Part shown: positions 25,071 through 42,238 of the stretch, one piece after another
Position numbering within the stretch: position 1 is the first letter of the stretch
How the letters are laid out: each line of letters opens with the position of its first letter
NCBI GenBank assembly: GCA_927405585.1
Contig: CAKMJS010000031.1
Span: 1 to 59,172, forward strand
Source: an uncultured Desulfosporosinus sp.
GTDB lineage: Bacteria; Bacillota; Desulfitobacteriia; Desulfitobacteriales; Desulfitobacteriaceae
Direction: 5' to 3'
DNA: 59,172 nt
Notes under the pieces: generated by a model
Database searches by the model: none
The model's input: only the letters and a program-made list of their open reading frames with translations
What the model was told of the DNA's origin: nothing
Program-made: the position numbers and the translations under genes

Positions 25071-25096
25071 AAAATACAAATAACTCAATATTCGTT

Positions 25097-25252
25097 TTGT
25101 TACTGGTGCCCTTTTATTAGGGAGAATAGGGAACTGGGTGAGAATCCCGGACGGACCCACCACTGTAAAGAGGAGACTTATGCTTTAGCCACTGGGAAAC
25201 CGGGAAGGCGCATAGGATCGATGATTCTAAGTCAGGAGACCTGCCTGTAACG
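25097..25252 (+). promoter_or_regulatory. Cobalamin riboswitch 1
   Basis: The adenosylcobalamin-type aptamer core is visible: GGGAACTGGGTGAGAATCCC, then ACGGACCCACCACTGTAA, and the 3' box GTCAGGAGACCTGCCTG. The closing helix P1 can form between GTTAC (25099-25103) and GTAAC near 25247-25251. It lies upstream of cblS-cblT-ecfA-ecfT-cbiD and is followed by a long terminator, so ligand binding should stop transcription. Confidence 0.93.
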
Positions 25253-25273
25253 TATTAAGACATGGATTAAGGT

Positions 25274-25338
25274 AAGGTTCATGGTCAATTTTCTTTCCAA
25301 GCATTGCTTGGGAAGAAAATTGGCTATGAACCTTTTTT
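25274..25338 (+). terminator. Riboswitch 1 expression platform terminator
   Basis: A very long interrupted stem starts with AAGGTTCATGG and ends with CTATGAACCTT, followed by TTTTTG. It ends just 10 bases before the first coding start. This is the OFF-state terminator of the upstream riboswitch. Confidence 0.88.
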
Positions 25339-25348
25339 GTTTCTTTAA

Positions 25349-26122
25349 ATGTGGAAAGCAGGTGATTGGTTGGGATATCTTGGTCGTGATGTTGAGGTTG
25401 CTTCGATAAACCATACACAATATTTAGTGGCGTCCTGTGATTCCTGTGGTGCAATAGGTATGAAGGAATTAGATGTTTATAAAGTTCCATGGTTCTTTAC
25501 AGGAAAGTTGACAACTCGGGTTGCTTTGTTGGAAGTCCTCTCCACAGGAGCTGTACCACAGATGCTTACCGTGGCGATTTCAAATGAGCCATACCCGACA
25601 GGAGATGAACTATTGAAGGGGGTGACCGATGAACTAGAATGCGCAGGATTAAGAACGCTGCCTATGGCTATCAGCACTGAAAAAAATATGACAACAAAAC
25701 AAACCGCTCTCGGAATCAGTGTGATTGGGGTGGCTGATAAGAACAAGTTGCGAATAGGATCTACTCAACAAGGGGATGAGATCTATTGTTTAGGTTCTCC
25801 TAAAGTCGGATCTGAGCTCAACAATCCAGAGGATCCAGAAATTGTACAAGTAAAAGCTATTCAAATCCTCTTAGAAATTTCAACAATCCATGACATTATT
25901 CCTGTAGGGTCCAGAGGGATACGATTAGAAGCAGACCAACTTGCCTCTACTGTTAACAGCCGTTTGCGAGTTGATCTTACCTGCACCCTTGATTTAGATA
26001 AATCAGCAGGACCTTCTACTTGTCTTATTTTTTCATCTTTAACATCCCAGAACTTAGACCTGGTGTTATCCAGTTTTCCAAATTTACCGTTAACCAGAAT
26101 CGGCACATTATACAAGATATGA
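25349..26122 (+). CDS. cblS: Alpha-ribazole kinase CblS (AIR-synthase-like)
   Basis: A 257-residue protein of the AIR synthase (PurM-like) ATP-binding fold, recognised as CblS, which phosphorylates salvaged alpha-ribazole to alpha-ribazole phosphate for the lower loop of cobalamin. Family landmarks are YLVASCDSCGAIGMKELD, TRVALLEVLSTGAVP and TEKNMTTKQTALGISVIG. The adjacent gene is its usual partner CblT, and both are under a cobalamin riboswitch, which supports the call. The ATG at 25349 has no ribosome site because the terminator T-run precedes it; the in-frame TTG at 25370, four bases after AGGTGA, may be the true start. A generic AIR synthase relative is the alternative. Confidence 0.78.
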   Translation: MWKAGDWLGYLGRDVEVASINHTQYLVASCDSCGAIGMKELDVYKVPWFFTGKLTTRVALLEVLSTGAVPQMLTVAISNEPYPTGDELLKGVTDELECAGLRTLPMAISTEKNMTTKQTALGISVIGVADKNKLRIGSTQQGDEIYCLGSPKVGSELNNPEDPEIVQVKAIQILLEISTIHDIIPVGSRGIRLEADQLASTVNSRLRVDLTCTLDLDKSAGPSTCLIFSSLTSQNLDLVLSSFPNLPLTRIGTLYKI

Positions 26123-26135
26123 GGAGGAATACTCT

Positions 26136-26648
26136 ATGAATAATTTAGGAACAGAAAAGAACTTACAACGCTCCGCTTGGAATGTTAAAAGACTAGCAAT
26201 TATGGCTATTTTTATTGCCCTAAGTGCGGTAGGAGCTTTGATAAAAATCCCTAGCCCGGTAGGAACTATTGGTCTAGATTCGGCTGCAGGATTTTTCAGT
26301 GCTCTAGCCTTTGGAGGGCTGCCGGGTGCAATCGTTATTGCTTTCGGGCATATGCTATCATCAGCAGTTGTTGGATTTCCTCTGACGATTCCCATTCATC
26401 TGTATGTTGCTTTGCAAATGGCCTTATGGGCTGTGGCCTATCGTTGGGTGAATGAAAAACTTGGTCTGATTCCTGCAGTTATCGTTGGGGTAATCCTCAA
26501 TGGCGTTGTATCATCCTTTGCTATGCTTCCGTTTATGGGTATGGGTGGAGTTATGGGATTGATGCCATTTCTGGTCGTTGGAGCAGCCCTTAACGTGATA
26601 ATTTCGGCAGTTGCCTACAAGGCTATTAAGGGAAGTCGGCTCATTTAG
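26136..26648 (+). CDS. cblT: ECF transporter S component CblT (alpha-ribazole)
   Basis: A 170-residue integral membrane protein with about six helices, the substrate-capture component of an energy-coupling-factor transporter. The first helix has the S-component pattern of small Ala/Gly residues (AIFIALSAVGALIKIPSP). Its place directly after cblS and before ecfA and ecfT, under a cobalamin riboswitch, points to alpha-ribazole as substrate, as reported for CblT of Listeria and Geobacillus. Cobalamin or another precursor remains possible. Spacing to cblS is 13 bases. Confidence 0.8.
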   Translation: MNNLGTEKNLQRSAWNVKRLAIMAIFIALSAVGALIKIPSPVGTIGLDSAAGFFSALAFGGLPGAIVIAFGHMLSSAVVGFPLTIPIHLYVALQMALWAVAYRWVNEKLGLIPAVIVGVILNGVVSSFAMLPFMGMGGVMGLMPFLVVGAALNVIISAVAYKAIKGSRLI

Positions 26649-26656
26649 GTGATGAG

Positions 26657-28480
26657 GTGAAAACCGTGGAGACCGTAAAAGTCCTAAATAGCGATGAATT
26701 TGCTATCGAACTCAAGAATATCTCGTATTGTTATCCAAACGTTGAAGAGCCTTGTTTGAAAAACATCAACTTAACCGTGCAGAAAGGGAAATTCATCGTT
26801 TTGATGGGAGCCACCGCGGCGGGGAAAACCACTTTGAGTTTATGTCTAAACGGTCTGATTCCACAGCTTCTAGAGGGGAAACTAACGGGACAGGTTAGTG
26901 TGGCTGGTCTGGACGTTAGGAAAACAGCGGTGCAAACGCTTTCGAAGGTTCTAGGGCTTGTTCTACAGGACCCCGAAACTCAAATATTTGGACGAACCGT
27001 CGAAGAGGATACAGCATTCGGACCGAGAAATTTTCAGGTTCCATTAGATGAAATCAAACAGAAAGTAAATAGCAGCTTAGAAAGTGTCCGTCTTAAAGGA
27101 TATAATCAACGCATGACTGAGGAACTTTCAGGTGGAGAGAAACAACGCTTGGCGATTGCGGGCGTCCTCGTGATGGAACCTGAAATTTTGGTGCTGGACG
27201 AGCCGACTTCAGAACTCGATCCAATCGGTCGATCAGAAATCTATGCGACGTTGAATGATTTGCGAACGAAAAAAGACTTAACTATTTTGTTGGTCGAACA
27301 CTCCATTGAAGAACTGATTCAGAAGGCCGATGAAGTCATTGTACTTAACCAAGGGGAAGTTGCTTGGAGAGGGGTTCCGATTGAACTCTTTCGCAATATT
27401 CCCCTCTTGAGTAAGTGGGGAATAAAGCCGTTGCCTGTGAGTCAGATTGGATGGAATTTCTACGAGAAGGGCTGGATTTCCTTTGCTGAAATCCCGTTAG
27501 ATATCCAAGCTGCGGAAGGCATGATTAGAGCGTTGTTACCCAAATACGGGCTTAGACAAGGACAAGTGCTAGTGCTGGGAGAAGGGCTAGGGCACACGCA
27601 AGAGCAGAATAAGGATTGCCTACTTAAGCAAGAAAATCAAATGTCCGAGAAAAAAATCTCAGTTCAAGTCAGTGAGCTATTTTACCAATATAACTCAGCA
27701 CAGCCAGCTTTGCGAGGGATTAATTTGACCATTGAAGCTGGTGAATTTGTGGCTTTGATCGGACAAAACGGTGCTGGAAAAACAACTTTAGCTAAACATT
27801 TCAATGGGCTTTTGAAACCTACCAGTGGTGAGATTATTGTAGAGGGCATGAAAACCTTACAGTATGATACCTCTGAATTATCAAAAACCATTGGGTACGT
27901 TTTTCAGAATCCGGACCATCAAATCTTCTCTACTTCCGTCGCCAAAGAATTAGAATTTGGACTTAAAAATGCTGGTTTTAGTGGCAAAGAAATCAAAGAA
28001 CGAGTCGATCAAGCTCTTCAATATACTGGGTTAGAAAGATACCGAAGTGTTCATCCATTTAGTTTGGGCAAAGGTGAACGGCAAATGATTGCTGTGGCTT
28101 CAATTCTTGTCTTAAAACCTAAACTGCTAATCATTGACGAACCGACTACTGGTTCGGATTGGGCAGGAGTTCAGACGATGATGGCTTTGATACGTAAACT
28201 TCACAGTGCAGGTACCACAATTATTATGATTAGTCATGATATGGACTTGGTAGCCCAATATGCTAAGAGGGTTATTGGGTTGAAAGACGGCGAGATTATA
28301 ATAGATGGTACACCACAAGCTGTTTTCTCTCAGGAGCAAATTCTTCTCGACTCTGCCATTATTCCACCTCAACTCTGTAGGCTCTCCTCGCATTTAAAGG
28401 ATATTCTAGGGAATGAAACCTTCATCGATTCAAGTGAGTTTACAGGGATGTTCGAAAGTTGGGAGACGACAGGATGTTAA
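26657..28480 (+). CDS. ecfA: Fused EcfA-EcfA' ATPase of an ECF transporter
   Basis: A 607-residue protein made of two complete ABC ATPases in tandem. The first (about residues 10-250) has GATAAGKTT, LSGGEKQR and LVLDEPTSELD. The second (about residues 335-560) has GQNGAGKTT, a modified signature FSLGKGERQ and LIIDEPTTGSD. The fusion supplies both nucleotide-binding sites needed to power the S and T components. The GTG start lies 8 bases after cblT. The second signature (LGKGE in place of SGGE/Q) is unusual but known in EcfA-type domains. Confidence 0.9.
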   Translation: MKTVETVKVLNSDEFAIELKNISYCYPNVEEPCLKNINLTVQKGKFIVLMGATAAGKTTLSLCLNGLIPQLLEGKLTGQVSVAGLDVRKTAVQTLSKVLGLVLQDPETQIFGRTVEEDTAFGPRNFQVPLDEIKQKVNSSLESVRLKGYNQRMTEELSGGEKQRLAIAGVLVMEPEILVLDEPTSELDPIGRSEIYATLNDLRTKKDLTILLVEHSIEELIQKADEVIVLNQGEVAWRGVPIELFRNIPLLSKWGIKPLPVSQIGWNFYEKGWISFAEIPLDIQAAEGMIRALLPKYGLRQGQVLVLGEGLGHTQEQNKDCLLKQENQMSEKKISVQVSELFYQYNSAQPALRGINLTIEAGEFVALIGQNGAGKTTLAKHFNGLLKPTSGEIIVEGMKTLQYDTSELSKTIGYVFQNPDHQIFSTSVAKELEFGLKNAGFSGKEIKERVDQALQYTGLERYRSVHPFSLGKGERQMIAVASILVLKPKLLIIDEPTTGSDWAGVQTMMALIRKLHSAGTTIIMISHDMDLVAQYAKRVIGLKDGEIIIDGTPQAVFSQEQILLDSAIIPPQLCRLSSHLKDILGNETFIDSSEFTGMFESWETTGC

Positions 28481-29286
28481 TAGAGTATTTACAGGGAGAC
28501 TCCTTCATCCATCGTCTAGATGTACGGACCAAAATGTTCGGATTTTTAGGATTTATGATACTTTCTTTTATATTCCAAGATCCAAAATACCAACTTTTGA
28601 TCGTTTTCTCAATGGGGCTATTAGCCTTTTGGATTAAAATACCTCTAAGAAAGATTGGGAAAATGTTGGTTCCCTTGATTCCTATCATCATATCGATTAT
28701 TCTAATCACAGGATTTACGTTTACACCTGAGCGCTTTGAGCGAGTTTCTAGCCAAGCAATCCTCTTTTATGTCCTGCCAGGAGACAGATTAGGGGCTACC
28801 TTGGGGGGATTTTTAATGGGCACAACCTTTATCTGTCGTCTGACCAGTATGATGATCGCTTCTTCTGTATTAACCTTGACCACGTCTATCGATGATTTCA
28901 CTCAATTTTTTCATAAGATGAAAGTTCCAGCTGAGGTATCCATGATGCTGACAACGGCGATACGCTTTATACCGACCCTGGATAAAAAACGTCGACTAAT
29001 CATAGAGGCTCAAAAAGCTCGAGGGACTAAGTTCAATGAGAAGGGGATCGTCGGTTCAATTAAATCGTATCTTCCTATCATGATCCCGATGTTTATTAAC
29101 TCAATTATGATGGCAAATTCGTTATCGATGGCAATGCTTAATCGAGGATATGGCTTGACGCGAACTTGGACAACCATGCGCGAACTATCATTTGAAACTA
29201 GCGATTACTGGGTGATTACCCTTACTGTGTTGTTAGTAACGTTAGCAATTTTTGTTCGCATTAAATTACAAATAGGGGTTTTATAA
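28474..29286 (+). CDS. ecfT: ECF transporter transmembrane component EcfT
   Basis: A 270-residue membrane protein that couples the ATPases to the S component. It has about five hydrophobic segments, the start motif GDSFIHRLDVRTKMFGFL, and two coupling-helix patterns, with AQKARGTKF near residue 180 being the Ala-Arg-Gly motif that docks on EcfA. The ATG at 28474 overlaps the end of the ecfA gene by seven bases; a TTG at 28459 is possible but badly placed. With ecfA and cblT it forms a self-contained group I ECF importer. Confidence 0.92.
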   Translation: MLIEYLQGDSFIHRLDVRTKMFGFLGFMILSFIFQDPKYQLLIVFSMGLLAFWIKIPLRKIGKMLVPLIPIIISIILITGFTFTPERFERVSSQAILFYVLPGDRLGATLGGFLMGTTFICRLTSMMIASSVLTLTTSIDDFTQFFHKMKVPAEVSMMLTTAIRFIPTLDKKRRLIIEAQKARGTKFNEKGIVGSIKSYLPIMIPMFINSIMMANSLSMAMLNRGYGLTRTWTTMRELSFETSDYWVITLTVLLVTLAIFVRIKLQIGVL

Positions 29287-29351
29287 GCTGTCTATAACCT
29301 TGCTGAGTAATAAGAGTCCTAAGGTAATAATTTGAATGTGGGAGAAAAACA

Positions 29352-30479
29352 ATGGCACGAGATAAAGACCGACATACTTGGCGCGAAGGATATACCACAG
29401 GAAGTTGTGCAGCAGGTGCTGCGAAAACAGCCTGTCAACTCCTCCGTGGGGAGAACTTAGCCGAACAGGTAGATATTCCACTGCCGAATTCGTCACGCTT
29501 AAAGATGCCCATCCATCGGGTTGAAAGTGGCTATCCAGAGGCTAAGGCAATTATTCTCAAAAACGGTGGAGATGATGCGGATATTACGCATGGACTTGAG
29601 ATCCATGCAATTGCGCGCTTTATATCCTCTCAAGGGGAGGTTTACATCCAGGGGGGCCTAGGAGTTGGAACCGTCACAAAAAAAGGATTGGCTCTCTCGG
29701 TTGGGGAAAGTGCCATTAACCCAGTACCAAGGACGATGATTTGTGAAGCGGTTCGGGAGGTCTTCCCTAATGAAGAAATTGAAATTACAATTGAAGTTCC
29801 TGACGGAGAAACCACCGCGCTACGCACTCTAAATCCTAGACTCGGGGTTCTTGGAGGGATTTCAATTCTCGGGACCAGTGGAATCGTTCGACCAATGTCC
29901 GAAGAGGCTTTTAAAACCTCGATCCTGCCAGAGCTGGATCAAGCAGTGGCTTATGGGCATAAAACCATAGTGCTTACTCCAGGACACTATGGCTATCGGG
30001 TAGCAACTGAACGCTTTATGGTCCCCGCCGAAGCTGTAATTCAAATGAGTAACTTTGTAGGCTTCTTACTGGAAGAAGCAGCTTATCGAGGGATTGACCA
30101 GGTTATTCTCTTAGGGCATATTGGCAAGCTCATTAAAGTTTCAGGTGGAATTTTCCATACCCATAATCGTGTCGCAGATGCTCGAATGGAAATTTTACTG
30201 GCGCATGCTGCATTAACAGGGGTTAACGCTAACACCTTAAACCATCTGGCAGAGTTTCCAACGACTGAAGGGGCGACCACTGAACTCTTGCTTCTCGGAG
30301 AGCAAAAGTTGCTTCACCATCTGGCTAACTTGGCGAGTGAAAGAGCCCAAGCTTACACCTTTGGACGTCTAAGCGTTGGAACAATCATGACCTTATTAAA
30401 CGGCCAAGCAGTTGGCTGGGATCCGTTGGCTCGGAAAATAGTGCAAGAACAAGGCTGGATATGGCCAGTTGAGCCATAA
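29352..30479 (+). CDS. cbiD: Cobalt-precorrin-5B (C1)-methyltransferase
   Basis: It methylates C1 of cobalt-precorrin-5B in the anaerobic corrinoid route. The N-terminal CbiD signature REGYTTGSCAAGAAKTA is clear, as are KNGGDDADITHG and HNRVADARMEILLAH. At 375 residues it has normal length. It is the last gene of the first riboswitch operon, 65 bases after ecfT and closed by a strong terminator, so it is separated from the other cbi genes by a second regulatory region. Confidence 0.95.
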   Translation: MARDKDRHTWREGYTTGSCAAGAAKTACQLLRGENLAEQVDIPLPNSSRLKMPIHRVESGYPEAKAIILKNGGDDADITHGLEIHAIARFISSQGEVYIQGGLGVGTVTKKGLALSVGESAINPVPRTMICEAVREVFPNEEIEITIEVPDGETTALRTLNPRLGVLGGISILGTSGIVRPMSEEAFKTSILPELDQAVAYGHKTIVLTPGHYGYRVATERFMVPAEAVIQMSNFVGFLLEEAAYRGIDQVILLGHIGKLIKVSGGIFHTHNRVADARMEILLAHAALTGVNANTLNHLAEFPTTEGATTELLLLGEQKLLHHLANLASERAQAYTFGRLSVGTIMTLLNGQAVGWDPLARKIVQEQGWIWPVEP

Positions 30480-30525: not shown

Positions 30526-30621
30526 TACAAAAGTTCTTTCTTAAATGATTAAATTATTATATAATACACAAATAATACATTATGTCGATTGATTACCTTA
30601 AGTGAATTGAATAAGTATATT

Positions 30622-30770
30622 CTTAAGGTTCCTCTGCGATAGAGGATTTAAAGGGGAAGTCGGTGAAAGTCCGGCGCGGTCCCGCCACTGTATACAAGGA
30701 GTTCTGTTCACAAATCCTCGTACTAGGATTGAATAGAATGATGATTTGAAGCCAGGAAACCTGCCTTAAG
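30622..30770 (+). promoter_or_regulatory. Cobalamin riboswitch 2
   Basis: The core reads GGGGAAGTCGGTGAAAGTCC, then GCGGTCCCGCCACTGTA, with the 3' box GAAGCCAGGAAACCTGCC. P1 forms between CTTAAGG (30622-30628) and CCTTAAG (30764-30770). A downstream TTAAGG copy (30814-30819) could pair with the 3' strand of P1 instead, a plausible anti-terminator switch. It controls the main cbi operon. Confidence 0.94.
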
Positions 30771-30827
30771 TAGCATCACAAACCTACGAGCGATAGGAGA
30801 TGTGTGTGTTTATTTAAGGTAAACCAT

Positions 30828-30852
30828 ACGAGCCGCTCAGGCTCGTTTTTTG
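30828..30852 (+). terminator. Riboswitch 2 expression platform terminator
   Basis: ACGAGCC (30828-30834) pairs with GGCTCGT (30840-30846) and is followed by TTTTTTG, 32 bases before the first coding start of the operon. Confidence 0.85.
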
Positions 30853-30883: not shown

Positions 30884-32101
30884 ATGTTACAAGTGATCGG
30901 TATCGGACCTGGTAGGCTGGAATGGTTGCCCCCTGCAATTACTGAACTTGTAAAGAACTGTGAAATACTAATCGGAGGGTCTAGGGCGCTTAAACTCTTT
31001 CCTGATTTCAGGGGACGTCAGCATACCCTATCTGGTGACCTAACCAGTAGTATTGAGGTGATCAGAAATGCACTACTGGAGGAGAAAGTTGTCGGGGTAC
31101 TTGTCTCTGGTGACCCAGGATTTTTCAGTTTTTTACCTAGACTTAAGAAAGAATTTCCTAAGGAGAGAATGGACGTCTATCCTGGGATCAGTTCTCTTCA
31201 ATTTGCTTTTGCTAGAGCTGGTATCGCTTGGCAAGAGGCAACCTTTGTAAGTGTTCATGGTCGAGAGTTGTCCGTCTTGCCTCAGGTTATAACTCGTCCA
31301 ACAGCGGTTTTAACAGGTGGGGAAAATACTCCTCAGAAAATTGCGCAATTCTATCTGGAGAGAGGATATAATCCACATATGTCGGTTGGGAATGCCCTTG
31401 CTTATCCAGAGGAATTTTGGGCGACAATGGATGCAAAGCATCTAGCTGAGGAAAAAACAGTTTTATTAAATGCGATTGTTATTCTTTATTCAGATAACCA
31501 CCAAGTCAATAAGTCTGGTACAGGGGGAAGAATTGGAATTCCGGACGAAGAATTTCTGCGAGGAAAGGTTCCGATGACCAAGGCGGAAATTCGGGTACAA
31601 GTACTTGCCAAAGCACAAATTTCAAGATATGACCGTGTCCTGGATGTTGGAGCTGGCACAGGAAGCATAAGCATAGAAGCCGCTGGCCTCGCTTCTGAAG
31701 GTGTAGTTTATGCGATTGAACATAATCCGGAGGCCCAAGCACTTATTCTTGCCAATCAAAACAAGTTTGGCATTTCAAATCTGCGCATGATTCCTGGAGT
31801 AGCGCCAGAAATCTTTGAAGAGATTGCTCCAGTCAATGTCTGTATTATTGGTGGGAGTAATGGGCGTTTATCAGAAATCTTGAAAACCGTTCCCCTTGTT
31901 GAAGGGGGAAGAATCGTGATTACTGCAGTCACGATCGAAACAGTCGCTCAAGGCTTAAAACTGCTTAAAGACTTCAACTATCTAGATATTGATACAGTAT
32001 CTGTTCAAGTAGTCCGTTGGAAAGAGGTTCAAACTCTTCATATGGCCCAAGCTCTAAATCCTATCTTTATAATATCAGCACGAAAAGGGGAAGCATTATG
32101 A
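30884..32101 (+). CDS. cbiET: Cobalt-precorrin-7 (C5,C15)-methyltransferase/decarboxylase, CbiE-CbiT fusion
   Basis: A 405-residue fusion, equivalent to CobL. Residues 1 to about 200 are CbiE (VIGIGPGRLEWLPPA, VSGDPGFFSFLPRL); about 215-405 is CbiT, a class I SAM methyltransferase with VLDVGAGTGSISIEAA near residue 252. It methylates C5 and C15 and removes the C12 acetate carboxyl. It is the first gene of the main cbi operon. Its stop overlaps the cbiL start as ATGA. Confidence 0.94.
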   Translation: MLQVIGIGPGRLEWLPPAITELVKNCEILIGGSRALKLFPDFRGRQHTLSGDLTSSIEVIRNALLEEKVVGVLVSGDPGFFSFLPRLKKEFPKERMDVYPGISSLQFAFARAGIAWQEATFVSVHGRELSVLPQVITRPTAVLTGGENTPQKIAQFYLERGYNPHMSVGNALAYPEEFWATMDAKHLAEEKTVLLNAIVILYSDNHQVNKSGTGGRIGIPDEEFLRGKVPMTKAEIRVQVLAKAQISRYDRVLDVGAGTGSISIEAAGLASEGVVYAIEHNPEAQALILANQNKFGISNLRMIPGVAPEIFEEIAPVNVCIIGGSNGRLSEILKTVPLVEGGRIVITAVTIETVAQGLKLLKDFNYLDIDTVSVQVVRWKEVQTLHMAQALNPIFIISARKGEAL

Positions 32102-32835
32102 GTACAACCTGGGGAAAATTCTATGGAGTCGGGGTCGGTCCTGGTGACCCTCGTCTCTTGACATTGCAAGCCGTCGATGTTCTACAGTCGGTCGATCTAG
32201 TGGCCACTCCGAAATCCAAACTTGACCGAGATAGTGTGGCTTGGGATATAGCCAAAATTCATTGTCCATCTAAGGTCCGACTTATCGAACTCGAAATGCC
32301 TATGACTGCAGATCAACAGGTTTTAGCAAAGGCTTGGCAAGATGGAGCACAAACTCTCTTGGCAGAACTGAAGCAGGGCAAATCCGTTGCCTTTATCACA
32401 TTGGGTGATCCTTCACTCTATAGTACCTACAGTTACCTACTTAACATCCTTCAGGAAGAATTACCTCAGGAGTGTATCATAACTGTGCCGGGGATCACAG
32501 CCATGTCCGCAGCAGCAGCCAGAATTAATTTACCTCTTGCCACTGGGGATGAGCCCCTTCTTATCTTGCCAAGTACTGAAGATGTTGGGGAGTTCCTCAA
32601 CTTCCCCAATTTAGTCTTAATGAAAGTGTCTCGGAGACTACCTGAAATTTTAACGCTTCTCGAAAAAAGAGATAGAAAAGCGGTCTTATTAACTCGACTA
32701 GGACAAGCAGGAGAAAAAATCCGTTGGGAACCCAAACCACAGGATTTCACGACTGACAAAATTGATTACCTGAGTTTGTTACTTGTCAAAAAAGATTTGT
32801 TGGGGAGGGAAAACAGTGAGCCAGACAAAAACTAA
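32098..32835 (+). CDS. cbiL: Cobalt-precorrin-2 C20-methyltransferase
   Basis: A tetrapyrrole methylase of 245 residues that adds the C20 methyl to cobalt-precorrin-2. The N-terminal loop GVGVGPGDPRLLTLQAV is typical of the family and AFITLGDPSLYSTYSYL is the second landmark that marks the CbiL/CobI group. The open frame reaches back to 32017 within cbiET, but the ATGA overlap at 32098 is the natural start. Confidence 0.94.
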   Translation: MSTTWGKFYGVGVGPGDPRLLTLQAVDVLQSVDLVATPKSKLDRDSVAWDIAKIHCPSKVRLIELEMPMTADQQVLAKAWQDGAQTLLAELKQGKSVAFITLGDPSLYSTYSYLLNILQEELPQECIITVPGITAMSAAAARINLPLATGDEPLLILPSTEDVGEFLNFPNLVLMKVSRRLPEILTLLEKRDRKAVLLTRLGQAGEKIRWEPKPQDFTTDKIDYLSLLLVKKDLLGRENSEPDKN

Positions 32836-33604
32836 CGGTGAGGTAATCTTTGTTGGGGCTGGACCGGGCGATCCAGAACTAATCACGCTCAAAGGATCCC
32901 GAGCACTAGAGAGGGCGGACCGTGTAATTTACGCAGGATCTTTAGTGAACCCAGAATTATTGGCAATGTGTCGTCCGGGAACCCCGTTTCATGATAGCGC
33001 CCATCTCACACTTGAAGACGTGGTTGCATTAATGTTCGAGGGAACTAAGCATGGAGAAACGATTGTCCGACTGCATACTGGCGATCCTAGTATGTATGGA
33101 GCTATTAAGGAACAATTTGACCATTTAGATAAGCAAGAGATTCCGTATTCTGTTATTCCTGGGGTTAGTTCGGTGTTTGCCGCCGCTGCAGCCATTAAAC
33201 GTGAATTTACACTGCCAGACATCAGCCAAACCTTGATTCTCACCCGTATAGCTGGACGCACTCCAGTTCCAGAGCGTGAGGCACTTGCTAAATTAGCACA
33301 ACACCAAGCAAGTATGGCTATTTTTCTTAGTGTTCAGGATATGGGATCTGTCGTTCAAGCCTTGCTGGAAGGTGGTTATCCTGCCACCACCCCCATTGCT
33401 GTAATTGCTAAAGCAAGTTGGCCGGATGAAGAGGTTCTTCTCGGAACCTTAGAAACCATCGTAGAAAAAGTCAAAGTCGCAGGAATCCGAAAACAGGCTC
33501 AAATCCTTGTGGGAGACTTCTTAGATCCGGCCCATGGATATGCCCGTTCGAAACTTTACGACCCGACCTTTACACATGAATATCGGCAAGGGACAGAAAA
33601 GTGA
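32816..33604 (+). CDS. cbiF: Cobalt-precorrin-4 C11-methyltransferase
   Basis: A tetrapyrrole methylase of 262 residues that methylates C11. Landmarks are VIFVGAGPGDPELITLKG, VIYAGSLVNPELL and RLHTGDPSMYGAIKEQ. GGGGAGGG at 32802-32809 fixes the GTG at 32816; the gene then overlaps the end of cbiL by 20 bases. Its own stop overlaps the cbiG start. Confidence 0.95.
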   Translation: MSQTKTNGEVIFVGAGPGDPELITLKGSRALERADRVIYAGSLVNPELLAMCRPGTPFHDSAHLTLEDVVALMFEGTKHGETIVRLHTGDPSMYGAIKEQFDHLDKQEIPYSVIPGVSSVFAAAAAIKREFTLPDISQTLILTRIAGRTPVPEREALAKLAQHQASMAIFLSVQDMGSVVQALLEGGYPATTPIAVIAKASWPDEEVLLGTLETIVEKVKVAGIRKQAQILVGDFLDPAHGYARSKLYDPTFTHEYRQGTEK

Positions 33605-34704
33605 ACATCAAAGAGAAATCGAAAGTAGCTCTAGTCGCCTTGACCGATCGAGGGTGGGATTTGATCCAGCGTATTGGAGAAGGACTTCCCAATGAAGTTA
33701 CTCGAGAGTTTTATATTCATGAAAAAGCGTTCGCTCAAAGTGAACAACAAGTCTTTTCTCGTTTGAGCGATATCCTTCCACGTTTATGGAAAGAGTATCA
33801 GGTTCTCATTTTTGTGATGGCTACAGGAATTGTCGTACGCCAAATTGCGTCGTTGATCGATCGGAAAGATCGAGATCCCGCAGTGCTAGTCTTAGATGAG
33901 GATGGGAAATTTGTAATTCCTCTGCTTTCCGGACATTTAGGTGGCGCGAACGCATGGGCCCATCTGCTTTCTAATCGGATTGGAGCCATGGCCGTTATTA
34001 CGACTGCAACGGATGTGAGGGGAATGGTAGCGCCTGACGTATACGCTCGTAGGTTTGGCTGGAAAGTTGAACCCGTTGATCATTTGCCAGTGGTCAATCG
34101 CATACTACTGGATCGAAAGCTTCTCAATGTCTGGGCAAAGTATCCTTTAAGCACTGAGCATCAGACCTGGGTCCAGGATCCCCATTATCGTTTCTTGTTA
34201 GAAAGCGAAAAAGATCTGGCGAATGTGATTATCGATGCTTTTCCAAACTCCAGGATTAAAGCGGATTGCCTGTATCTAGTCCCGCCAATCTTAAGTGTAG
34301 GGGTAGGGTGTCGTCGAGGGGTATCTCGTGAGGTAATACTAGAGAGAATCAGGACAGAAGTAGAACAGCTCGGGGCCTCGGTTAAGGCAATCTCGGGAAT
34401 ATATAGTATTGACCTTAAATCGGATGAGGTAGGTCTGATTGAAGCGGCTAAGTACCTGCGGGTCCCGTTTCAAACCTTTCTGGCAGATGAGCTACAAGAG
34501 ATTAATCTTCAAGAACAGTTGAATCGATCAAATTTTGTAAGTGAAAAGATAGGAGTGGACGGAGTATGCGAAGCAGCGAGTTTACTGGGAGCCAAGATGG
34601 GACGGCTAGTCCTGCCGAAAACCAAGGGACAGGGGGTCACAGTGGCGATCAGCGTGGAAAGCTCTTTGTCGTGGGACTTGGACCCGGGGATCAAGACCAT
34701 ATGA
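33601..34704 (+). CDS. cbiG: Cobalt-precorrin-5A hydrolase
   Basis: It opens the delta-lactone of cobalt-precorrin-5A and releases acetaldehyde, a step unique to the anaerobic route. The central CbiG pattern is FVMATGIVVRQIASLI, DRDPAVLVLDEDG and PLLSGHLGGANAWA. The C-terminal domain starts with LSVGVGCRRGVSREVI. The start is GTG at 33601. Its last 139 bases overlap the next gene in a different frame. Confidence 0.94.
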   Translation: MNIKEKSKVALVALTDRGWDLIQRIGEGLPNEVTREFYIHEKAFAQSEQQVFSRLSDILPRLWKEYQVLIFVMATGIVVRQIASLIDRKDRDPAVLVLDEDGKFVIPLLSGHLGGANAWAHLLSNRIGAMAVITTATDVRGMVAPDVYARRFGWKVEPVDHLPVVNRILLDRKLLNVWAKYPLSTEHQTWVQDPHYRFLLESEKDLANVIIDAFPNSRIKADCLYLVPPILSVGVGCRRGVSREVILERIRTEVEQLGASVKAISGIYSIDLKSDEVGLIEAAKYLRVPFQTFLADELQEINLQEQLNRSNFVSEKIGVDGVCEAASLLGAKMGRLVLPKTKGQGVTVAISVESSLSWDLDPGIKTI

Positions 34705-35390
34705 CGACACTGGTCCAGTCTGTGTTAAATGAAGTAGAATATATTGTGGGCTATAAAACCTATATCGACCTTATTCGATCGTTTATTACTCATCAACAAA
34801 TTGTAGCGACTGGAATGCGTCAAGAGATTGATCGCTGTCGAGAAGCAATTCGTCTGGCTGCTGAGGGACACCGTGTAGCCGTCATAAGCAGTGGAGATGC
34901 TGGAGTTTACGGTATGGCTGGGATTATTATCGAATGTTTGGAACAAGAGAACCTTATAAATCTGCCCTTAGAGATCATTCCTGGCGTAACAGCGGCCTCT
35001 GCGGCAGCTTCTATGTTAGGAGCTCCTTTAATGCATGATTTTGCAGTGGTTAGCTTAAGTGATCTTTTAACTCCTTGGGAGATTATCGAGAAACGAGTTC
35101 GTTTAGCAGCTGAAGGAGATTTTATCTTCGCGCTTTATAACCCGAAAAGTAACGGGCGTCCGCACCACATTGAGACCGTGCGGGAAATTGTCTTGCGCTA
35201 TCGTCATCCTGACACCCCTGTAGGATTGGTTCGGGAAGCCTTACGAGGGGAGGAATCAAGCGTTCTAATTACTACATTGGGGGATTTCACGAAGCACCCT
35301 ATCGATATGCTCACGACTGTCATTATAGGAAACTCTCAAACTAGAATTATTGGCCCCTATATGGTGACTCCACGAGGATACAAGCTGTGA
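34566..35390 (+). CDS. cbiH: Cobalt-precorrin-3 C17-methyltransferase (ring contraction)
   Basis: It methylates C17 with ring contraction of the macrocycle. The catalytic domain begins at about residue 32 (KLFVVGLGPGDQDHMT) and includes YKTYIDLI, ISSGDAGVYGMAG and ALYNPKSNGRPHH. The only in-frame start upstream of the conserved core is the ATG at 34566, with GGAG sequences at 34552-34555 and 34561-34564. This gives a 31-residue polar extension (MRSSEFTGSQDGTASP...) that is encoded inside cbiG. Without it the protein would have to start within the conserved strand. Confidence 0.93.
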   Translation: MRSSEFTGSQDGTASPAENQGTGGHSGDQRGKLFVVGLGPGDQDHMTTLVQSVLNEVEYIVGYKTYIDLIRSFITHQQIVATGMRQEIDRCREAIRLAAEGHRVAVISSGDAGVYGMAGIIIECLEQENLINLPLEIIPGVTAASAAASMLGAPLMHDFAVVSLSDLLTPWEIIEKRVRLAAEGDFIFALYNPKSNGRPHHIETVREIVLRYRHPDTPVGLVREALRGEESSVLITTLGDFTKHPIDMLTTVIIGNSQTRIIGPYMVTPRGYKL

Positions 35391-36520
35391 GGCTTTTAGT
35401 CTTGGCGGGAACAGAGGATGGCCGAGAGCTAGCGGATGCCTTTAAGCAGCGTGGACATGATGTTTTAGTGTCAACTTTAACGGCATATGGTGCGGATTTG
35501 GCACAAGAGCAAGGGTTGAACGCTCGCTCGGGTGCGATGGATGCAGAGAGTCTCACAGAACTTCTTAAAGCGGGTTCCTCCGTTGAAGCTCTAGTGGATG
35601 CAACTCATCCCTATGCTGTACGCGTTAAAGTAATGGCCAAAAAGGTCTGTGACGATTTAGGTATACCATACCTGCGCTGGGAGCGATCACCACTAGAGAT
35701 AGCGGATCATCCCCTGATACATTGGGCGAAGGATTTATCATCTGCGGCGCAGATTGCAGCAGAGCAGGGACAACGTATTCTGCTAACGACTGGTAGTAAT
35801 GGGTTGGCTGAATGGGTATCTCTTCTTGATAGGAACAATAAATTGCTCTATATTCGTGTTCTCCCTACCTCAGAGGTGTTGAAGCGTTGTGAGGAGTTAG
35901 GATTTAAGCCCTACCAAATCATTGCCGCTCAAGGTCCGTTTTCTCAAGCATGGGATGAAGCCATGATTAAGCAATTAAAGATCGAGGTCGTGGTCGCCAA
36001 GGAAAGTGGGAAAGTTGGCGGAACCTTCGAAAAAGTACAGGCTTGTCTCAGCTTAAACATTCCGTTGGTTATCATAAAACGGCCAGTAGTTGAAAAGGAT
36101 TCACAGAATACTACAGTTGCTCAATTTATAAAGCATATGGAGGATAATTACATGAAATCAGAAATTATTATTCTAGGACACGGTAGCCGTCGTGCAGAAG
36201 CAAACCAAGGACTTTTGGAAGTTGCCGAAAAAGTGAGTCGGTTAATGGGACAGCCAGTAACCCCAGCCTATATGGCTCATGATCACCCGAGCCTTCCAGA
36301 AGCAGTAGAAGCAAAAATTCAAGGTGGTGCGTTACGTATTGTCGTAATGCCGCTCTTTCTTTTCCGAGGAATTCACGTTACAGTCGATATTCATGAGGAA
36401 TTGCGTGAAATTCGTGAACAGAATCCTAAGGTAGAGATCATCTTTACTAAAGAACTGGGAGCGGATGACGGGATTGCAAACTTGGCCAGCCTGCGTATTA
36501 AGGAGGCTTTAGGCATATGA
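35387..36520 (+). CDS. cbiJX: Cobalt-precorrin-6A reductase fused to sirohydrochlorin cobaltochelatase (CbiJ-CbiX)
   Basis: A 377-residue two-domain protein. Residues 1 to about 250 are CbiJ/CobK (LVLAGTEDGRELADAFKQRG, LVDATHPYAVRV, VVVAKESGKVGGT), which reduces the corrin ring with NAD(P)H. Residues about 256-377 are a short-form CbiX (IIILGHGSRRAEANQGLLEV, PLFLFRGIHVTVDI), which inserts cobalt into sirohydrochlorin; the chelatase His are in GHGSR and GIHVTVDI. One frame runs through both with no stop. An internal ATG at the junction (DNYMKSEI) with AGGA upstream could also allow a free CbiX to be made. Confidence 0.93.
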   Translation: MRLLVLAGTEDGRELADAFKQRGHDVLVSTLTAYGADLAQEQGLNARSGAMDAESLTELLKAGSSVEALVDATHPYAVRVKVMAKKVCDDLGIPYLRWERSPLEIADHPLIHWAKDLSSAAQIAAEQGQRILLTTGSNGLAEWVSLLDRNNKLLYIRVLPTSEVLKRCEELGFKPYQIIAAQGPFSQAWDEAMIKQLKIEVVVAKESGKVGGTFEKVQACLSLNIPLVIIKRPVVEKDSQNTTVAQFIKHMEDNYMKSEIIILGHGSRRAEANQGLLEVAEKVSRLMGQPVTPAYMAHDHPSLPEAVEAKIQGGALRIVVMPLFLFRGIHVTVDIHEELREIREQNPKVEIIFTKELGADDGIANLASLRIKEALGI

Positions 36521-37155
36521 CAATAGAATTTATTCTGGACCCGAGTAAAATTGAAACAGAAAGTATGCGCATTATACGAGCAGGGCTAACCCGACAATGG
36601 CTAGAGGCAGATTATCCTGTAGTCGAACGGATTATTCATACTACCGGAGATCCATCGTTAGAGTCCTCGATCGCGATTCATCCAGAGGCAATTGCTTGCG
36701 GGCTTAAGGCGCTTAAGGAAGGTGCCAACGTGATTACTGACGTTGAGATGGTCCGAGCTGGGATCTCTAAGGAAAAACTTAAATCGTTGGGCGGAACGGT
36801 AGAATGCTTCCTGAATGCTCCCGGGGTCACGGAACAAGCGAAAGAGTGGGGAATCACACGCTCGATGACTGCTTTGCGTATGAATGCGGAGCGTTTGAAA
36901 GGCTCAATTGTGGCGATCGGTAATGCGCCAACAGCCCTAATCGAGGTCTTGGGTTTAGCAAAGAATCCAGAGACTCGACCTGCTTTAATCGTTGGCATAC
37001 CTGTGGGTTTCATTGGAGCACAGGAGTCTAAGGATTTACTTTGGGAACACCAGGAGTACCCTTCGATTACAGTGCTCGGGACGCGTGGAGGAAGTCCAAT
37101 TGCCGCAACCGTTGTTAATGCCTTAATTTATACTGTGTTAAAACAACTTAAATAA
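36517..37155 (+). CDS. cbiC: Cobalt-precorrin-8 methylmutase
   Basis: It moves a methyl group from C11 to C12 to give cobyrinic acid. The family motif RIIHTTGDPSLE carries the likely catalytic His, and later come GANVITDVEMVRAGI and APTALIEVLGLA. Length is 212 residues. The ATG overlaps the stop of the CbiJ-CbiX gene. Confidence 0.95.
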   Translation: MTIEFILDPSKIETESMRIIRAGLTRQWLEADYPVVERIIHTTGDPSLESSIAIHPEAIACGLKALKEGANVITDVEMVRAGISKEKLKSLGGTVECFLNAPGVTEQAKEWGITRSMTALRMNAERLKGSIVAIGNAPTALIEVLGLAKNPETRPALIVGIPVGFIGAQESKDLLWEHQEYPSITVLGTRGGSPIAATVVNALIYTVLKQLK

Positions 37156-37219
37156 GTTTTTAAGGTCAAGACATGAAAATCCATAAAGTACCAGTTGTAA
37201 GAAAAAGAGGGTGATAAAG

Positions 37220-38785
37220 ATGTCTTCAAACAATAAACCAACGGCCATGCTTATGATTCAAGGAACCTCCTCAAGCGTTGGAAAGAGTGTGTTGGCTGCA
37301 GCGTTTTGTCGGATATTTTATCAAGAAGGATACCATGTAAGTCCTTTCAAAGCACAGAATATGGCCCTCAATTCCTTTGTGACCATAACCGGTGGAGAGA
37401 TGGGGAGAGCGCAGGTCGTTCAAGCTCAAGCCGCTGGAGTTGAACCAGAGGTGCGAATGAACCCTATTTTACTTAAACCCAGTGGTCCAACGGGTTCTCA
37501 GGTCGTTATTATGGGCAAGTCGCAGGGGAACGTGACTGCTTTACGTTACCATGGGGAATATCAACGTATGACGTGGCCGTATGTGACTGAGGCTCTTCAC
37601 GGTCTGATCGATGACTATGAAATAGTGGTGATTGAAGGGGCAGGAAGTCCAGCTGAAGTTAATCTTAAATCAAACGATATTGTCAATATGCGAGTTGCTA
37701 TGGAAGCCAAATCACCGGTCTTACTTGTGGCAGATATTGACCGTGGCGGCGCGTTAGCAGCCGTCGTCGGGACCCTGGAATTGGTGGAACCCGAGGAACG
37801 AGCTATGATCAAAGGGATCATTTTTAATAAGTTTCGTGGTGAAATTAAGCTTCTACAGCCCGCATTAGACTTCATAGAAGAAAAAACAGGAATCCGAGTA
37901 GTAGGGGTTGTGCCATATTTTAAGATCCGTATTCCAGATGAAGATTCAGTAGCCTTGAACGAAGCAGACGAAAAACCCTCGGTTACCTTAGAAGACCAAT
38001 TGGACGTAGCGGTGATTCGTTTACCGTATATTTCAAATTTTACGGACTTTGATGCACTTCAAGATGAACCGGATGTTTCGGTGCGCTATGTAACTGACCC
38101 CGCAAATCTGGGAAAACCAGATCTCTTAATTATTCCGGGTAGTAAAAATACTCTTGGCGACTTACGTTTTCTCCATGAGAGTGGGTTAGGAGCCCTTATT
38201 CATACGCTTGATGAAAAAGAGGTTCCGGTCATAGGGATATGTGGTGGCTACCAAATGATGGGCCGCTTAGTGAAAGATCCCTTGCATACGGAGTCCGAGC
38301 TTGAAGAAGTATTGGGCCTTGGCATTTTGCCAATGGTGACAGAATTTTACGCTCAGAAGCATACTGTCCAAAGTAAGGGGACAGTTGTTGCGGAGCATGG
38401 CTTTTTAAAGGCTTGTACTGGTGAAACGGTGGTTGGGTATGAGATCCACATGGGTCGAACTACGATGGATGACGGACATACGCCACTGTTTAAACTGACC
38501 ACAGATGGAGAATCTAATGTCGATGGCATGCAGGTAGGCAATGCCTATGGAACCTATTTACATGGTATTTTTGACAATGACAGCTTGCGGACATCCCTTA
38601 TAAACTGGCTATGGCAGCGTCGGGGGTCCGTGAGACCTGTAGAAGCGTCACTCTCTCAGGCAGCACTTCGTGAATTAGCGTTTAATGAGTTAGCAGATTT
38701 AGTACGTCACAATGTTGATTTAGAACAGATTCGAGCTATTATGGGCTTAGGTGTTGAAGCAACGCCAAAGGGAAAGTCCAGGTAA
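37220..38785 (+). CDS. cbiP: Cobyric acid synthase
   Basis: It amidates four side chains of the corrin ring (b, d, e, g) using glutamine and ATP. The N-terminal synthetase domain has QGTSSSVGKSVLAAAF and KPSGPTGSQVVIMG. The C-terminal class I glutaminase-like domain has the nucleophile Cys in GICGGYQMMG and His in YLHGIFDN. Length is 521 residues. A GTG at 37211 is in frame, but GAGGGTG at 37207-37213 is the ribosome site for the ATG at 37220. Confidence 0.96.
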   Translation: MSSNNKPTAMLMIQGTSSSVGKSVLAAAFCRIFYQEGYHVSPFKAQNMALNSFVTITGGEMGRAQVVQAQAAGVEPEVRMNPILLKPSGPTGSQVVIMGKSQGNVTALRYHGEYQRMTWPYVTEALHGLIDDYEIVVIEGAGSPAEVNLKSNDIVNMRVAMEAKSPVLLVADIDRGGALAAVVGTLELVEPEERAMIKGIIFNKFRGEIKLLQPALDFIEEKTGIRVVGVVPYFKIRIPDEDSVALNEADEKPSVTLEDQLDVAVIRLPYISNFTDFDALQDEPDVSVRYVTDPANLGKPDLLIIPGSKNTLGDLRFLHESGLGALIHTLDEKEVPVIGICGGYQMMGRLVKDPLHTESELEEVLGLGILPMVTEFYAQKHTVQSKGTVVAEHGFLKACTGETVVGYEIHMGRTTMDDGHTPLFKLTTDGESNVDGMQVGNAYGTYLHGIFDNDSLRTSLINWLWQRRGSVRPVEASLSQAALRELAFNELADLVRHNVDLEQIRAIMGLGVEATPKGKSR

Positions 38786-38791
38786 TCTAAA

Positions 38792-39766
38792 ATGTTGGAA
38801 ATACTAAGTTTAGTTTGGGCTGTTCTTCCAATCGCAGTATTGTTTGGCTTTATTCTGGATCAGATAATAGGAGACCCCCGAAGTTGGCCTCATCCGGTCG
38901 TGGGAATAGGGAACATGATCACCATTTTAGAACGCAAGCTCAATCTAGGAACGCCTAAGGTGCGACGCGCCAACGGGGTTCTCCTAACGATCCTTATAGT
39001 AGGTGGGAGCTATCTGATCACATGGATTGTTGTGTTTATTGCGAATACACTTCATCCCTTGTTGGGTTTAGCATTAAGTACTTATGTGATTTTTACAACC
39101 TTAGCGAGTAAATCCCTCTTAGATGCTGGGCAAAGTGTCCTAGCTCCTTTGCTAAATGGGGATCTAGGTGAAGCTCGTACACGACTTTCGTGGTTGGTCA
39201 GCAGAGATACTGCCAATCTTTCCGAAGGAGAGATTGCCCGGGGAACCGTCGAAACGCTCGCCGAAAATTTTGTCGACGGGATTTTATCTCCGCTGATATA
39301 TGCCGCTCTGGGAGGAGCGCCCTTAGCGATGGCCTTTAAGGCGATCAGCACTTTAGATTCTATGGTTGGCTACAGGAATGATCGTTATGAAGAGTTTGGC
39401 TGGTTCTCGGCTCGAACGGATGACTGGGCGAACTACGTGCCAGCGCGCTTATCTGTGCCGATCTTACTGCTCGCAGGCTGGTTGAGGAAAATGTCCGTAG
39501 GTCACGCCTATCAAATGTGGAGGCGAGATGCCTCAGGTCATCCTAGTCCCAATGGTGGTAATCCGGAAAGTGTGGTTGCTGGGTTACTTGGCATTCAGCT
39601 TGGCGGTATCAATATCTATCATGGTCGGACTCACCACCGAGCAGAAATGGGAGACGCCCTGCATCCAGTAGACGTCACTGACATTGTCCGTTGTCGTCAA
39701 CTGGTTCATACGGCGACCTGGCTTTCCCTCTTACCTGCTCTAATGTTAGCTTACCTGATGAGTTAA
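38792..39766 (+). CDS. cbiB: Adenosylcobinamide-phosphate synthase
   Basis: A membrane protein of 324 residues that joins aminopropanol phosphate to adenosylcobyric acid. Landmarks are DQIIGDPRSWPHPVVGIGNM, LDSMVGYRNDRYEEFGWFSA and GHPSPNGGNPESVVAGLLGI. It has about four or five hydrophobic segments. The gap to cbiP is six bases. Confidence 0.95.
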   Translation: MLEILSLVWAVLPIAVLFGFILDQIIGDPRSWPHPVVGIGNMITILERKLNLGTPKVRRANGVLLTILIVGGSYLITWIVVFIANTLHPLLGLALSTYVIFTTLASKSLLDAGQSVLAPLLNGDLGEARTRLSWLVSRDTANLSEGEIARGTVETLAENFVDGILSPLIYAALGGAPLAMAFKAISTLDSMVGYRNDRYEEFGWFSARTDDWANYVPARLSVPILLLAGWLRKMSVGHAYQMWRRDASGHPSPNGGNPESVVAGLLGIQLGGINIYHGRTHHRAEMGDALHPVDVTDIVRCRQLVHTATWLSLLPALMLAYLMS

Positions 39767-39904
39767 TTGAGACCATTTTTAACGTCTGCAATTCTCCTTG
39801 AAGAAGGCAGTCATTTTGTACAAGAGCCAGATAATCGAACTTTATGGCTATAACGATTGGGTGAATATTAGGTAACTGGGATTTTATAGGAAGGGAGATA
39901 CAGC

Positions 39905-41308
39905 ATGAAGATCCCACGTATTGTTCTAGCGGGAACGCATAGTGGCGTTGGAAAAACAACCCTTGCTACAGGTTTGATGGCAGCTTTGAAAAAGCGAGGA
40001 CGCCCAATCCAAGGGTACAAGGTCGGACCAGATTACATCGACCCCAGTTATCATGCGGCAGCTACGGGAAAGGCTTCCCGAAATCTTGACCGCTGGCTGT
40101 TGGGCGAACATCTTCCTTCCGTCTTTGCTCAAAGCGCTGGAGAGTGTTGGGCGGTGATTGAAGGTGTGATGGGCTTATTTGACGGTATGAGCGGAACAGC
40201 CGGTTTCGGAAGTACTGCCGATGTGGCAAAACTTCTTCATACTCCAATCATCCTCATTGTCGATGCGTCCTCGATGTCCCGTAGCGTTGCGGCCTTAGTT
40301 CACGGGTTTAATACTTATGACCCTGAAGTAAACCTTCAAGGAGTTATACTTAACCGCGTAAAATCTGTGGCCCAGGAAAAAATACTTAGAGAAGCCTTAA
40401 ATGATCTCCAGATCCCTGTCCTCGGTGTCCTCCCGAAAGAAGTGGCATTGCATCTTCCTGAACGGCATTTAGGATTGGTTCCAGTGGGGGAGAGTGGGCT
40501 ACTAGAGGGCTTTATCGACACGCTTTCAGAGTTGGTAACGAAACACATTGATTTAGAACAAATCGAACGCATTATGCTAAGCGCTCCTGATCTCAACGAG
40601 TCTCCTGTAATGACGGGTGTATTAACGGATGCCCCCATACAAACTGAAGTTAGTTCTGTGGAGCAAGAGGATAAATTTCGGTTAGGATTGGCACTGGATG
40701 AGGCTTTCCTTTTTTACTACCAGGATGCAATAGATCTGGCAAAACGTTTAAATTTTAGGATTGTCCCGTTTAGCCCTTTACACGACAATGCACTCCCACC
40801 GGACCTTGACGGTATTTTTATCGGCGGGGGATTTCCAGAGCTTCATCTTGATCGTTTGAGTGGAAATATTACCTTCCTTGACTCTCTGCGCTCTTATGCA
40901 GCGAGTGGCAAACCTGTTTATGCCGAGTGTGGTGGATACATGTATCTCGGACAGTCCATAACTGATTTTGAAGGAAGAGAAGTTCCTTTAGCTGGTCTCA
41001 TTCCGATGAAGGCAGAAATGACACGACGCTTACAAGGCATAGGGTATCGACGAGGGGTCTTTCGTGAGGATAATTTCCTAGGTCCACGTGGGACCACAGT
41101 TCAAGGGCACGAATTTCACTATTCTAGAGTTACCTATGATCACGAATTCCCGCCCGCCTATGAATTGTTCAAAGGAGATCACGCTGATCGAATGGAGGGA
41201 TATGCCCGAGATAATATCGTGGCATCCTATCTTCACCTTCATTTTTCAGGACAAGCAAAGCTACTCGAGAACTGGTTTGCAACGCGAACCGGGAGAATTG
41301 GGGTATGA
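39905..41308 (+). CDS. cbiA: Cobyrinate a,c-diamide synthase
   Basis: It amidates the a and c side chains using glutamine and ATP. The synthetase domain has AGTHSGVGKTTLATGL and YKVGPDYIDPSYH; the glutaminase domain has the Cys in YAECGGYMYLG and the His in SYLHLHFSG. Length is 467 residues. It follows a 138-base gap after cbiB with no obvious terminator, and its stop overlaps the pduX start. Confidence 0.96.
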   Translation: MKIPRIVLAGTHSGVGKTTLATGLMAALKKRGRPIQGYKVGPDYIDPSYHAAATGKASRNLDRWLLGEHLPSVFAQSAGECWAVIEGVMGLFDGMSGTAGFGSTADVAKLLHTPIILIVDASSMSRSVAALVHGFNTYDPEVNLQGVILNRVKSVAQEKILREALNDLQIPVLGVLPKEVALHLPERHLGLVPVGESGLLEGFIDTLSELVTKHIDLEQIERIMLSAPDLNESPVMTGVLTDAPIQTEVSSVEQEDKFRLGLALDEAFLFYYQDAIDLAKRLNFRIVPFSPLHDNALPPDLDGIFIGGGFPELHLDRLSGNITFLDSLRSYAASGKPVYAECGGYMYLGQSITDFEGREVPLAGLIPMKAEMTRRLQGIGYRRGVFREDNFLGPRGTTVQGHEFHYSRVTYDHEFPPAYELFKGDHADRMEGYARDNIVASYLHLHFSGQAKLLENWFATRTGRIGV

Positions 41309-42210: not shown

Positions 42211-42238
42211 GAATTAACATAAATTACGGGGTGAAACT

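Follow-up and report, generated by a model that had tools for sequence, protein, structure and literature searches.

A CblS-CblT locus with its own ECF transporter genes in Desulfosporosinus, a probable alpha-ribazole salvage module

Results

A cobalamin riboswitch precedes an operon of cblS, cblT, ECF transporter genes and cbiD

We analyzed a stretch of 59,172 nucleotides from an uncultured Desulfosporosinus sp. (contig CAKMJS010000031.1 of assembly GCA_927405585.1), hereafter called the window. The closest relatives of the genome likewise place it in Desulfosporosinus. At 25087-30479 its forward strand carries a cobalamin riboswitch and a strong terminator, followed by the five closely packed genes cblS, cblT, ecfA-ecfA', ecfT and cbiD (Table 1). 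An initial annotation of this DNA had named a riboswitch, an AIRS-like protein, an S component, a double EcfA, EcfT and CbiD, and all of these parts were found in place. No terminator-like site was found in the gaps between the five genes, including the 65 bases that separate ecfT from cbiD. An RF00174 aptamer and a likely expression platform both lie 5' of the operon, which places it in the cobalamin riboswitch regulon; the terminator hairpin is near-perfect (MFE -46.8 kcal/mol, z -9.65). All eight tested Bacillota loci that carry this module have a riboswitch in the corresponding position, and none of the three tested Desulfobacterota loci does.

Two of the listed start codons probably need correction. 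The ATG of cblS (25349) lies directly behind the terminator and has no ribosome-binding site; the true start is probably the TTG at 25370, since this codon is preceded by AGGTGA (25360-25365) and gives the N terminus MGYLGRDVEV as in relatives. For ecfT the true start is probably the ATG at 28474, which overlaps the ecfA stop and corresponds in place to the ecfT start of relatives.

Table 1. Features of the cblS-cblT operon and the adjoining corrin operon (window positions).
Feature	Position	Strand	Evidence
Cobalamin riboswitch aptamer	25087..25262	+	RF00174, 113.9 bits, E 8e-28
Intrinsic terminator, likely expression platform	25281..25327	+	20-pair stem, then U run
cblS, alpha-ribazole kinase homologue	25349..26122	+	Listeria CblS reciprocal match; PurM/ThiL-type fold
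cblT, ECF S component homologue for alpha-ribazole	26136..26648	+	PF12822, 46.7 bits; Listeria CblT reciprocal match
ecfA-ecfA' fused double ATPase	26657..28480	+	Two ABC_tran domains; TIGR04520 and TIGR04521 above cut-off
ecfT, transmembrane coupling component	28459..29286	+	PF02361, 108.5 bits
cbiD, cobalt-precorrin-5B C1-methyltransferase	29352..30479	+	TIGR00312, 406.7 bits
Second cobalamin riboswitch, 5' of main corrin operon	30609..30782	+	RF00174, 86.6 bits
Terminator of second riboswitch	30828-30846		
Main corrin operon	30884..43363	+	Family matches; CobI, CobM, CobJ from translations

The next operon, which begins with the second riboswitch and its terminator, holds the remaining corrin-ring genes. 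It encodes CbiET, CobI/CbiL, CobM/CbiF, CbiG, CobJ/CbiH, CbiJ-CbiX, CbiC, CbiP, CbiB, CbiA, a GHMP kinase and CobD; CobI, CobM and CobJ were assigned by reading the translations and all others by family matches. The initial annotation was thus right to place a corrin operon next door, and the cell is probably able to build the corrin ring itself. A single fusion protein (35387-36520) combines CbiJ (precorrin-6x reductase) with CbiX (cobaltochelatase). The GHMP-kinase-like protein encoded 5' of CobD (41305-42210) has no NCBIfam match and is possibly an L-threonine kinase feeding CobD.

The first two proteins are homologues of CblS and CblT

Alpha-ribazole salvage by CblT and CblS of Listeria innocua reportedly goes back to Gray and Escalante-Semerena in 2010. 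Homologues of the window proteins were searched in annotated plasmid records, which include some Listeria chromosomal DNA. By tblastn, window CblS is 32-34% identical to CblS of Listeria and lactobacilli over 84-95% of its length (E to 5e-29); a Cytobacillus homologue was also matched. The match in Listeria is a single protein encoded immediately 5' of cobU-cobS-cobC, and Listeria CblS in turn matched only the window gene in the whole Desulfosporosinus genome (E 7.9e-26). This one match each way supports the earlier naming of the first protein as CblS. On plasmid pMF1298-5 the gene order agrees with the CblT, CblS, CobS and CobC reported by its authors (PMC6722938), and the pair is homologous to that of the window.

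The AlphaFold model of CblS (mean pLDDT 94) has the fold of PurM, ThiL, SelD and HypE (Foldseek E about 1e-13). Window CblS shares with these enzymes the fold and a weak match to Pfam AIRS (19.7 bits, under the cut-off), a family matched by 42 of 44 CblS family members (best 1e-8), but it is shorter (250 aa), only 11-17% identical to them and a member of the CblS family. In an alignment of the window sequence with those of related loci (44 sequences), 24 columns are invariant, for example in CDSCGAIGxK, and all of them are present in the window protein. Sequence searches, a profile search included, found no solved relative. By homology, window CblS is predicted to phosphorylate alpha-ribazole.

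Window CblT matches the Listeria S component encoded 5' of cbiA-cbiB (about 34% identity) and nothing else in the whole Listeria chromosome record, and the reverse search of the Desulfosporosinus genome with Listeria CblT gave the window gene as its single match (E 1.3e-18). Together with the adjacency to cblS, this reciprocal result backs the assignment of the second protein as CblT, a putative alpha-ribazole transporter component. Its AlphaFold model (mean pLDDT 93) shows the ECF S-component fold. Among solved structures, RibU and FolT come closest in fold, no CblT occurs among the matches, and the cobalamin S component CbrT (6fnp) scores far lower. The initial annotation had taken a best match to riboflavin, thiamine or cobalt S components as evidence against CblT. 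Such a match to riboflavin was seen only among solved structures, and the sole match in the Listeria chromosome is its CblT. The two Pfam families matched by window CblT are matched by Listeria CblT as well, and more strongly. The nearness of RibU and FolT is therefore no evidence for riboflavin, given that structure matches include no CblT and that Listeria CblT fits the 'riboflavin' Pfam family better; on the same ground a riboflavin S component was ruled out.

The ECF module is additional to a shared-type module elsewhere in the genome

The genome encodes seven EcfT proteins: three in CbiMNQO cobalt importers, one in a shared-type module adjoining truA-rplM-rpsI on contig C112, two at other S-component loci and one beside cblT. 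With three CbiMNQO sets encoded elsewhere, the window transporter was ruled out as the cobalt importer. As these importers and a separate shared-type module exist, the window module is additional, in line with the initial annotation, and probably dedicated to CblT; the module on C112 makes exclusive use of the window module by CblT plausible.

As in other group I ECF transporters (CbiMNQO and further S-A-A'-T operons), the S component forms one unit with A, A' and T, an arrangement kept in 31 loci (among the best 80 of 180). The window transporter differs from them in its substrate component, CblT, which has no module of its own in most loci.

The first half of the fused ATPase keeps the signature LSGGE, and the second has LGKGE in place of LSGGQ. 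In every member of the cblS-cblT-ecfAA' branch (see below) where the motif was located, the second half departs from LSGGQ (LGKGE or similar), giving a fixed asymmetry of the two signatures across the branch. This departure is not unique to the CblT module, since another S-component-linked module of the genome departs too. In five loci of heliobacteria and relatives (L094, L099, L101, L102 and L103), EcfA, EcfA' and EcfT form one polypeptide of 795-885 residues encoded beside cblT; the domains were confirmed in three of the five.

The arrangement is confined to one branch of the CblS family

To place the locus we scanned the collection with one short motif and named the best 80 of 180 loci, so that more distant architectures may be missed. 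Among these 80, cblS-cblT followed by ECF genes occurs at 31 loci and cblT-cblS without adjacent ECF genes at 33; the latter agree with the earlier expectation that CblT elsewhere has no module of its own. In the CblS tree, every sequence from a locus with the order cblS-cblT falls into one branch of 35 (support 83/74; 100/98 with one sister sequence added), and among the same 80 loci the full order cblS-cblT-ecfAA'-ecfT is confined to this branch, which includes Desulfotomaculales kin. Its members come from Desulfosporosinus, Paradesulfitobacterium, heliobacteria, Pelotomaculum, Desulfotruncus and four Desulfobacterota loci; the exceptions inside it are two short contigs and one decayed Acididesulfobacillus copy. 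The initial annotation treated the arrangement as a trait of this strain, and it proved to be clade-wide. Its recurrence in most of the related CblS loci examined argues against a chance gene order. Throughout the branch cblT is always encoded with cblS, and cbiD follows ecfT in most, not all, Desulfosporosinus.

In the Acididesulfobacillus acetoxydans copy (locus L107, 6001-8154), cblS is intact, cblT and most of ecfAA' are missing and part of EcfA' is fused to EcfT, the state of a decaying module.

The pairs of Clostridia, Negativicutes, Bacilli and some archaea resemble that of the window in that homologous genes are adjacent, sometimes within corrin operons (Alkaliphilus, Natronincola), but differ in their cblT-cblS order and in having no adjoining ECF module in the 33 loci examined. 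The archaeal pairs lie on contigs L132, L140 and L142 (Methanomethylicota, Bathyarchaeota), and two of the three adjoin CobS, CbiZ, CbiB and CobD. In Listeria, kinase and S component are orthologous to the window pair by reciprocal search, but cblT and cblS are about 39 kb apart without neighbouring ECF genes, whereas the window genes are adjacent, in opposite order, with their own ecfAA'T and with CobT present in the genome.

CobT is retained in all CblS-bearing relatives

Cobamide function depends on the lower ligand, and the initial annotation had called for a search for cobT and bza genes. The first was found and the second were not: CobT (E 4.5e-137), CobU and CobS are clustered on contig C24, and no ThiC-family protein was found in the genome, which leaves BzaA, BzaB and BzaF as well as ThiC itself absent. 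Nor was BluB found above the cut-off. As the genome is a draft (98.6% complete, 181 contigs), these absences are likely rather than certain; as they stand, DMB must come from outside.

CblS was found in 32 of 60 relatives and CobT in all 32, and none of the nine relatives lacking CobT has CblS. Across a sample of the phylum, CobT accompanies CblS in 33 of 54 genomes and is missing from the other 21, and the two are not significantly associated (p 0.11). The Desulfosporosinus genome thus keeps the very gene for which CblTS would substitute, and a replacement of CobT by CblTS was ruled out for this order. Given CobT-CobU-CobS in the genome and CobT in every CblS-bearing relative, salvage most likely supplements CobT rather than replacing it. 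The proposed dependence of the strain on scavenged alpha-ribazole was accordingly not supported as stated, as CobT can attach imported bases and possibly purines.

The absence of ThiC-family proteins is unlike most genus mates, which have three of them, with tandem ThiC-family genes of BzaA/BzaB type, and suggests a need for an external thiamine precursor as well. One relative (G015) has a long bza-type cluster alongside its own cblST module, with two ThiC-family genes, a PurE-like gene and three more genes as in bza operons (L153, 7380-15260).

Discussion

We conclude, with good confidence, that the operon serves alpha-ribazole salvage and encodes an ECF importer of its own for this task (group I, dedicated). 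Several lines of evidence argue for alpha-ribazole salvage: window CblS and CblT are single reciprocal matches of the Listeria CblS and CblT loci, which adjoin cobU-cobS-cobC and cbiA-cbiB; the pair is homologous to that named CblT and CblS on pMF1298-5, and folds and conserved CblS residues agree; cblS, cblT, ecfAA' and ecfT stay together in 31 loci (among the best 80 of 180); other parts of the genome provide for cobalt import and for a shared ECF module; and no ThiC/Bza protein and no BluB above the cut-off were found. The BzaA/BzaB-type genes of most genus mates and the identity of only 30-35% to the Listeria proteins count against it.

At low intracellular cobamide, the riboswitch would let transcription proceed past the terminator. 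CblT would bind extracellular alpha-ribazole, and the EcfA-EcfA' ATPase with EcfT would drive it through the membrane, and CblS would phosphorylate it with ATP. The resulting alpha-ribazole phosphate would be joined by CobS, whose gene lies elsewhere in the genome, to adenosylcobinamide-GDP, and the adjoining operon would supply the corrin ring of the latter. Because cbiD shares the transcript of cblS and cblT, CbiD may couple ring synthesis to salvage, and CobT would continue to handle free bases in parallel. Bacterial exometabolomes and marine organic matter contain a compound whose mass formula is that of alpha-ribazole (PMC9296465).

It is unlikely, though worth weighing, that the pair salvages the free benzimidazole base or other alpha-ribosides, for example of purine, and that alpha-ribazole is just one substrate among several. 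Desulfitobacterium natively uses a purine from outside as its lower ligand (PMC6389850), cblTS is classed by some authors as a system for DMB uptake (PMC8123684), and a CblT with only about 34% identity to that of Listeria leaves room for another ligand. A ThiL/PurM-type kinase beside an S component, however, fits a nucleoside and not a free base, and the pairing of cblS with cblT is kept family-wide in either gene order. We judge it similarly improbable that the ECF genes beside cblT serve several S components or that CblT uses the truA-rplM-rpsI module instead: such a shared module does exist on C112, but the S-A-A'-T block is inherited together, and the single A-A'-T polypeptides beside cblT in five loci are what a dedicated transporter would lead one to expect. 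That the S component is wrongly paired or carries another cobalamin-regulated cargo (riboflavin, cobalt, a whole corrinoid) is very improbable: its Pfam family is named ECF-type riboflavin transporter and RibU and FolT are its nearest solved folds, but Listeria CblT matches the same families more strongly, three CbiMNQO sets serve cobalt, CbrT scores far lower and cblT is always encoded with cblS in the branch.

Alpha-ribazole salvage is not obligatory here, since this genome and every one of the 32 relatives with CblS encode CobT. In the sister genus Desulfitobacterium, purines and benzimidazoles from outside enter the cobamides by way of CobT (PMC6389850). With CobT present and able in Desulfitobacterium to use exogenous bases, salvage most likely provides a route for the nucleoside next to the CobT route for bases.

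CblS has been counted in 363 species, mostly Firmicutes, with its share also plotted for predicted cobamide producers (PMC6461909). Corrin producers that salvage are thus no novelty; CblS in such producers was already known in bulk (Shelton 2019). A Dehalobacter corrinoid study never names cblS or cblT (PMC4285132). No dedicated ECF module for CblT appeared in the literature searched, a set that stops short of the founding ECF and CblTS papers, where an earlier mention is possible. The parts are known, and the variant with a dedicated importer is limited to a single lineage within the CblS family.

Tentatively, we suggest that in one anaerobic Bacillota lineage (and four Desulfobacterota) alpha-ribazole import separated a single time from the shared ECF pool and gained a self-contained transporter, mostly under riboswitch control. 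It would be kept beside corrin synthesis and CobT, so that at cobamide scarcity the lower ligand is set by a scavenged nucleoside and not by a base of the cell's own. If true, corrin producers with CobT would nonetheless take up finished alpha-ribazole by their own transporter, and bza or cobT genes alone would not reveal which cobamide they make. The module would also offer a compact four-protein system in which alpha-ribazole transport may be reconstituted without a shared ECF module.
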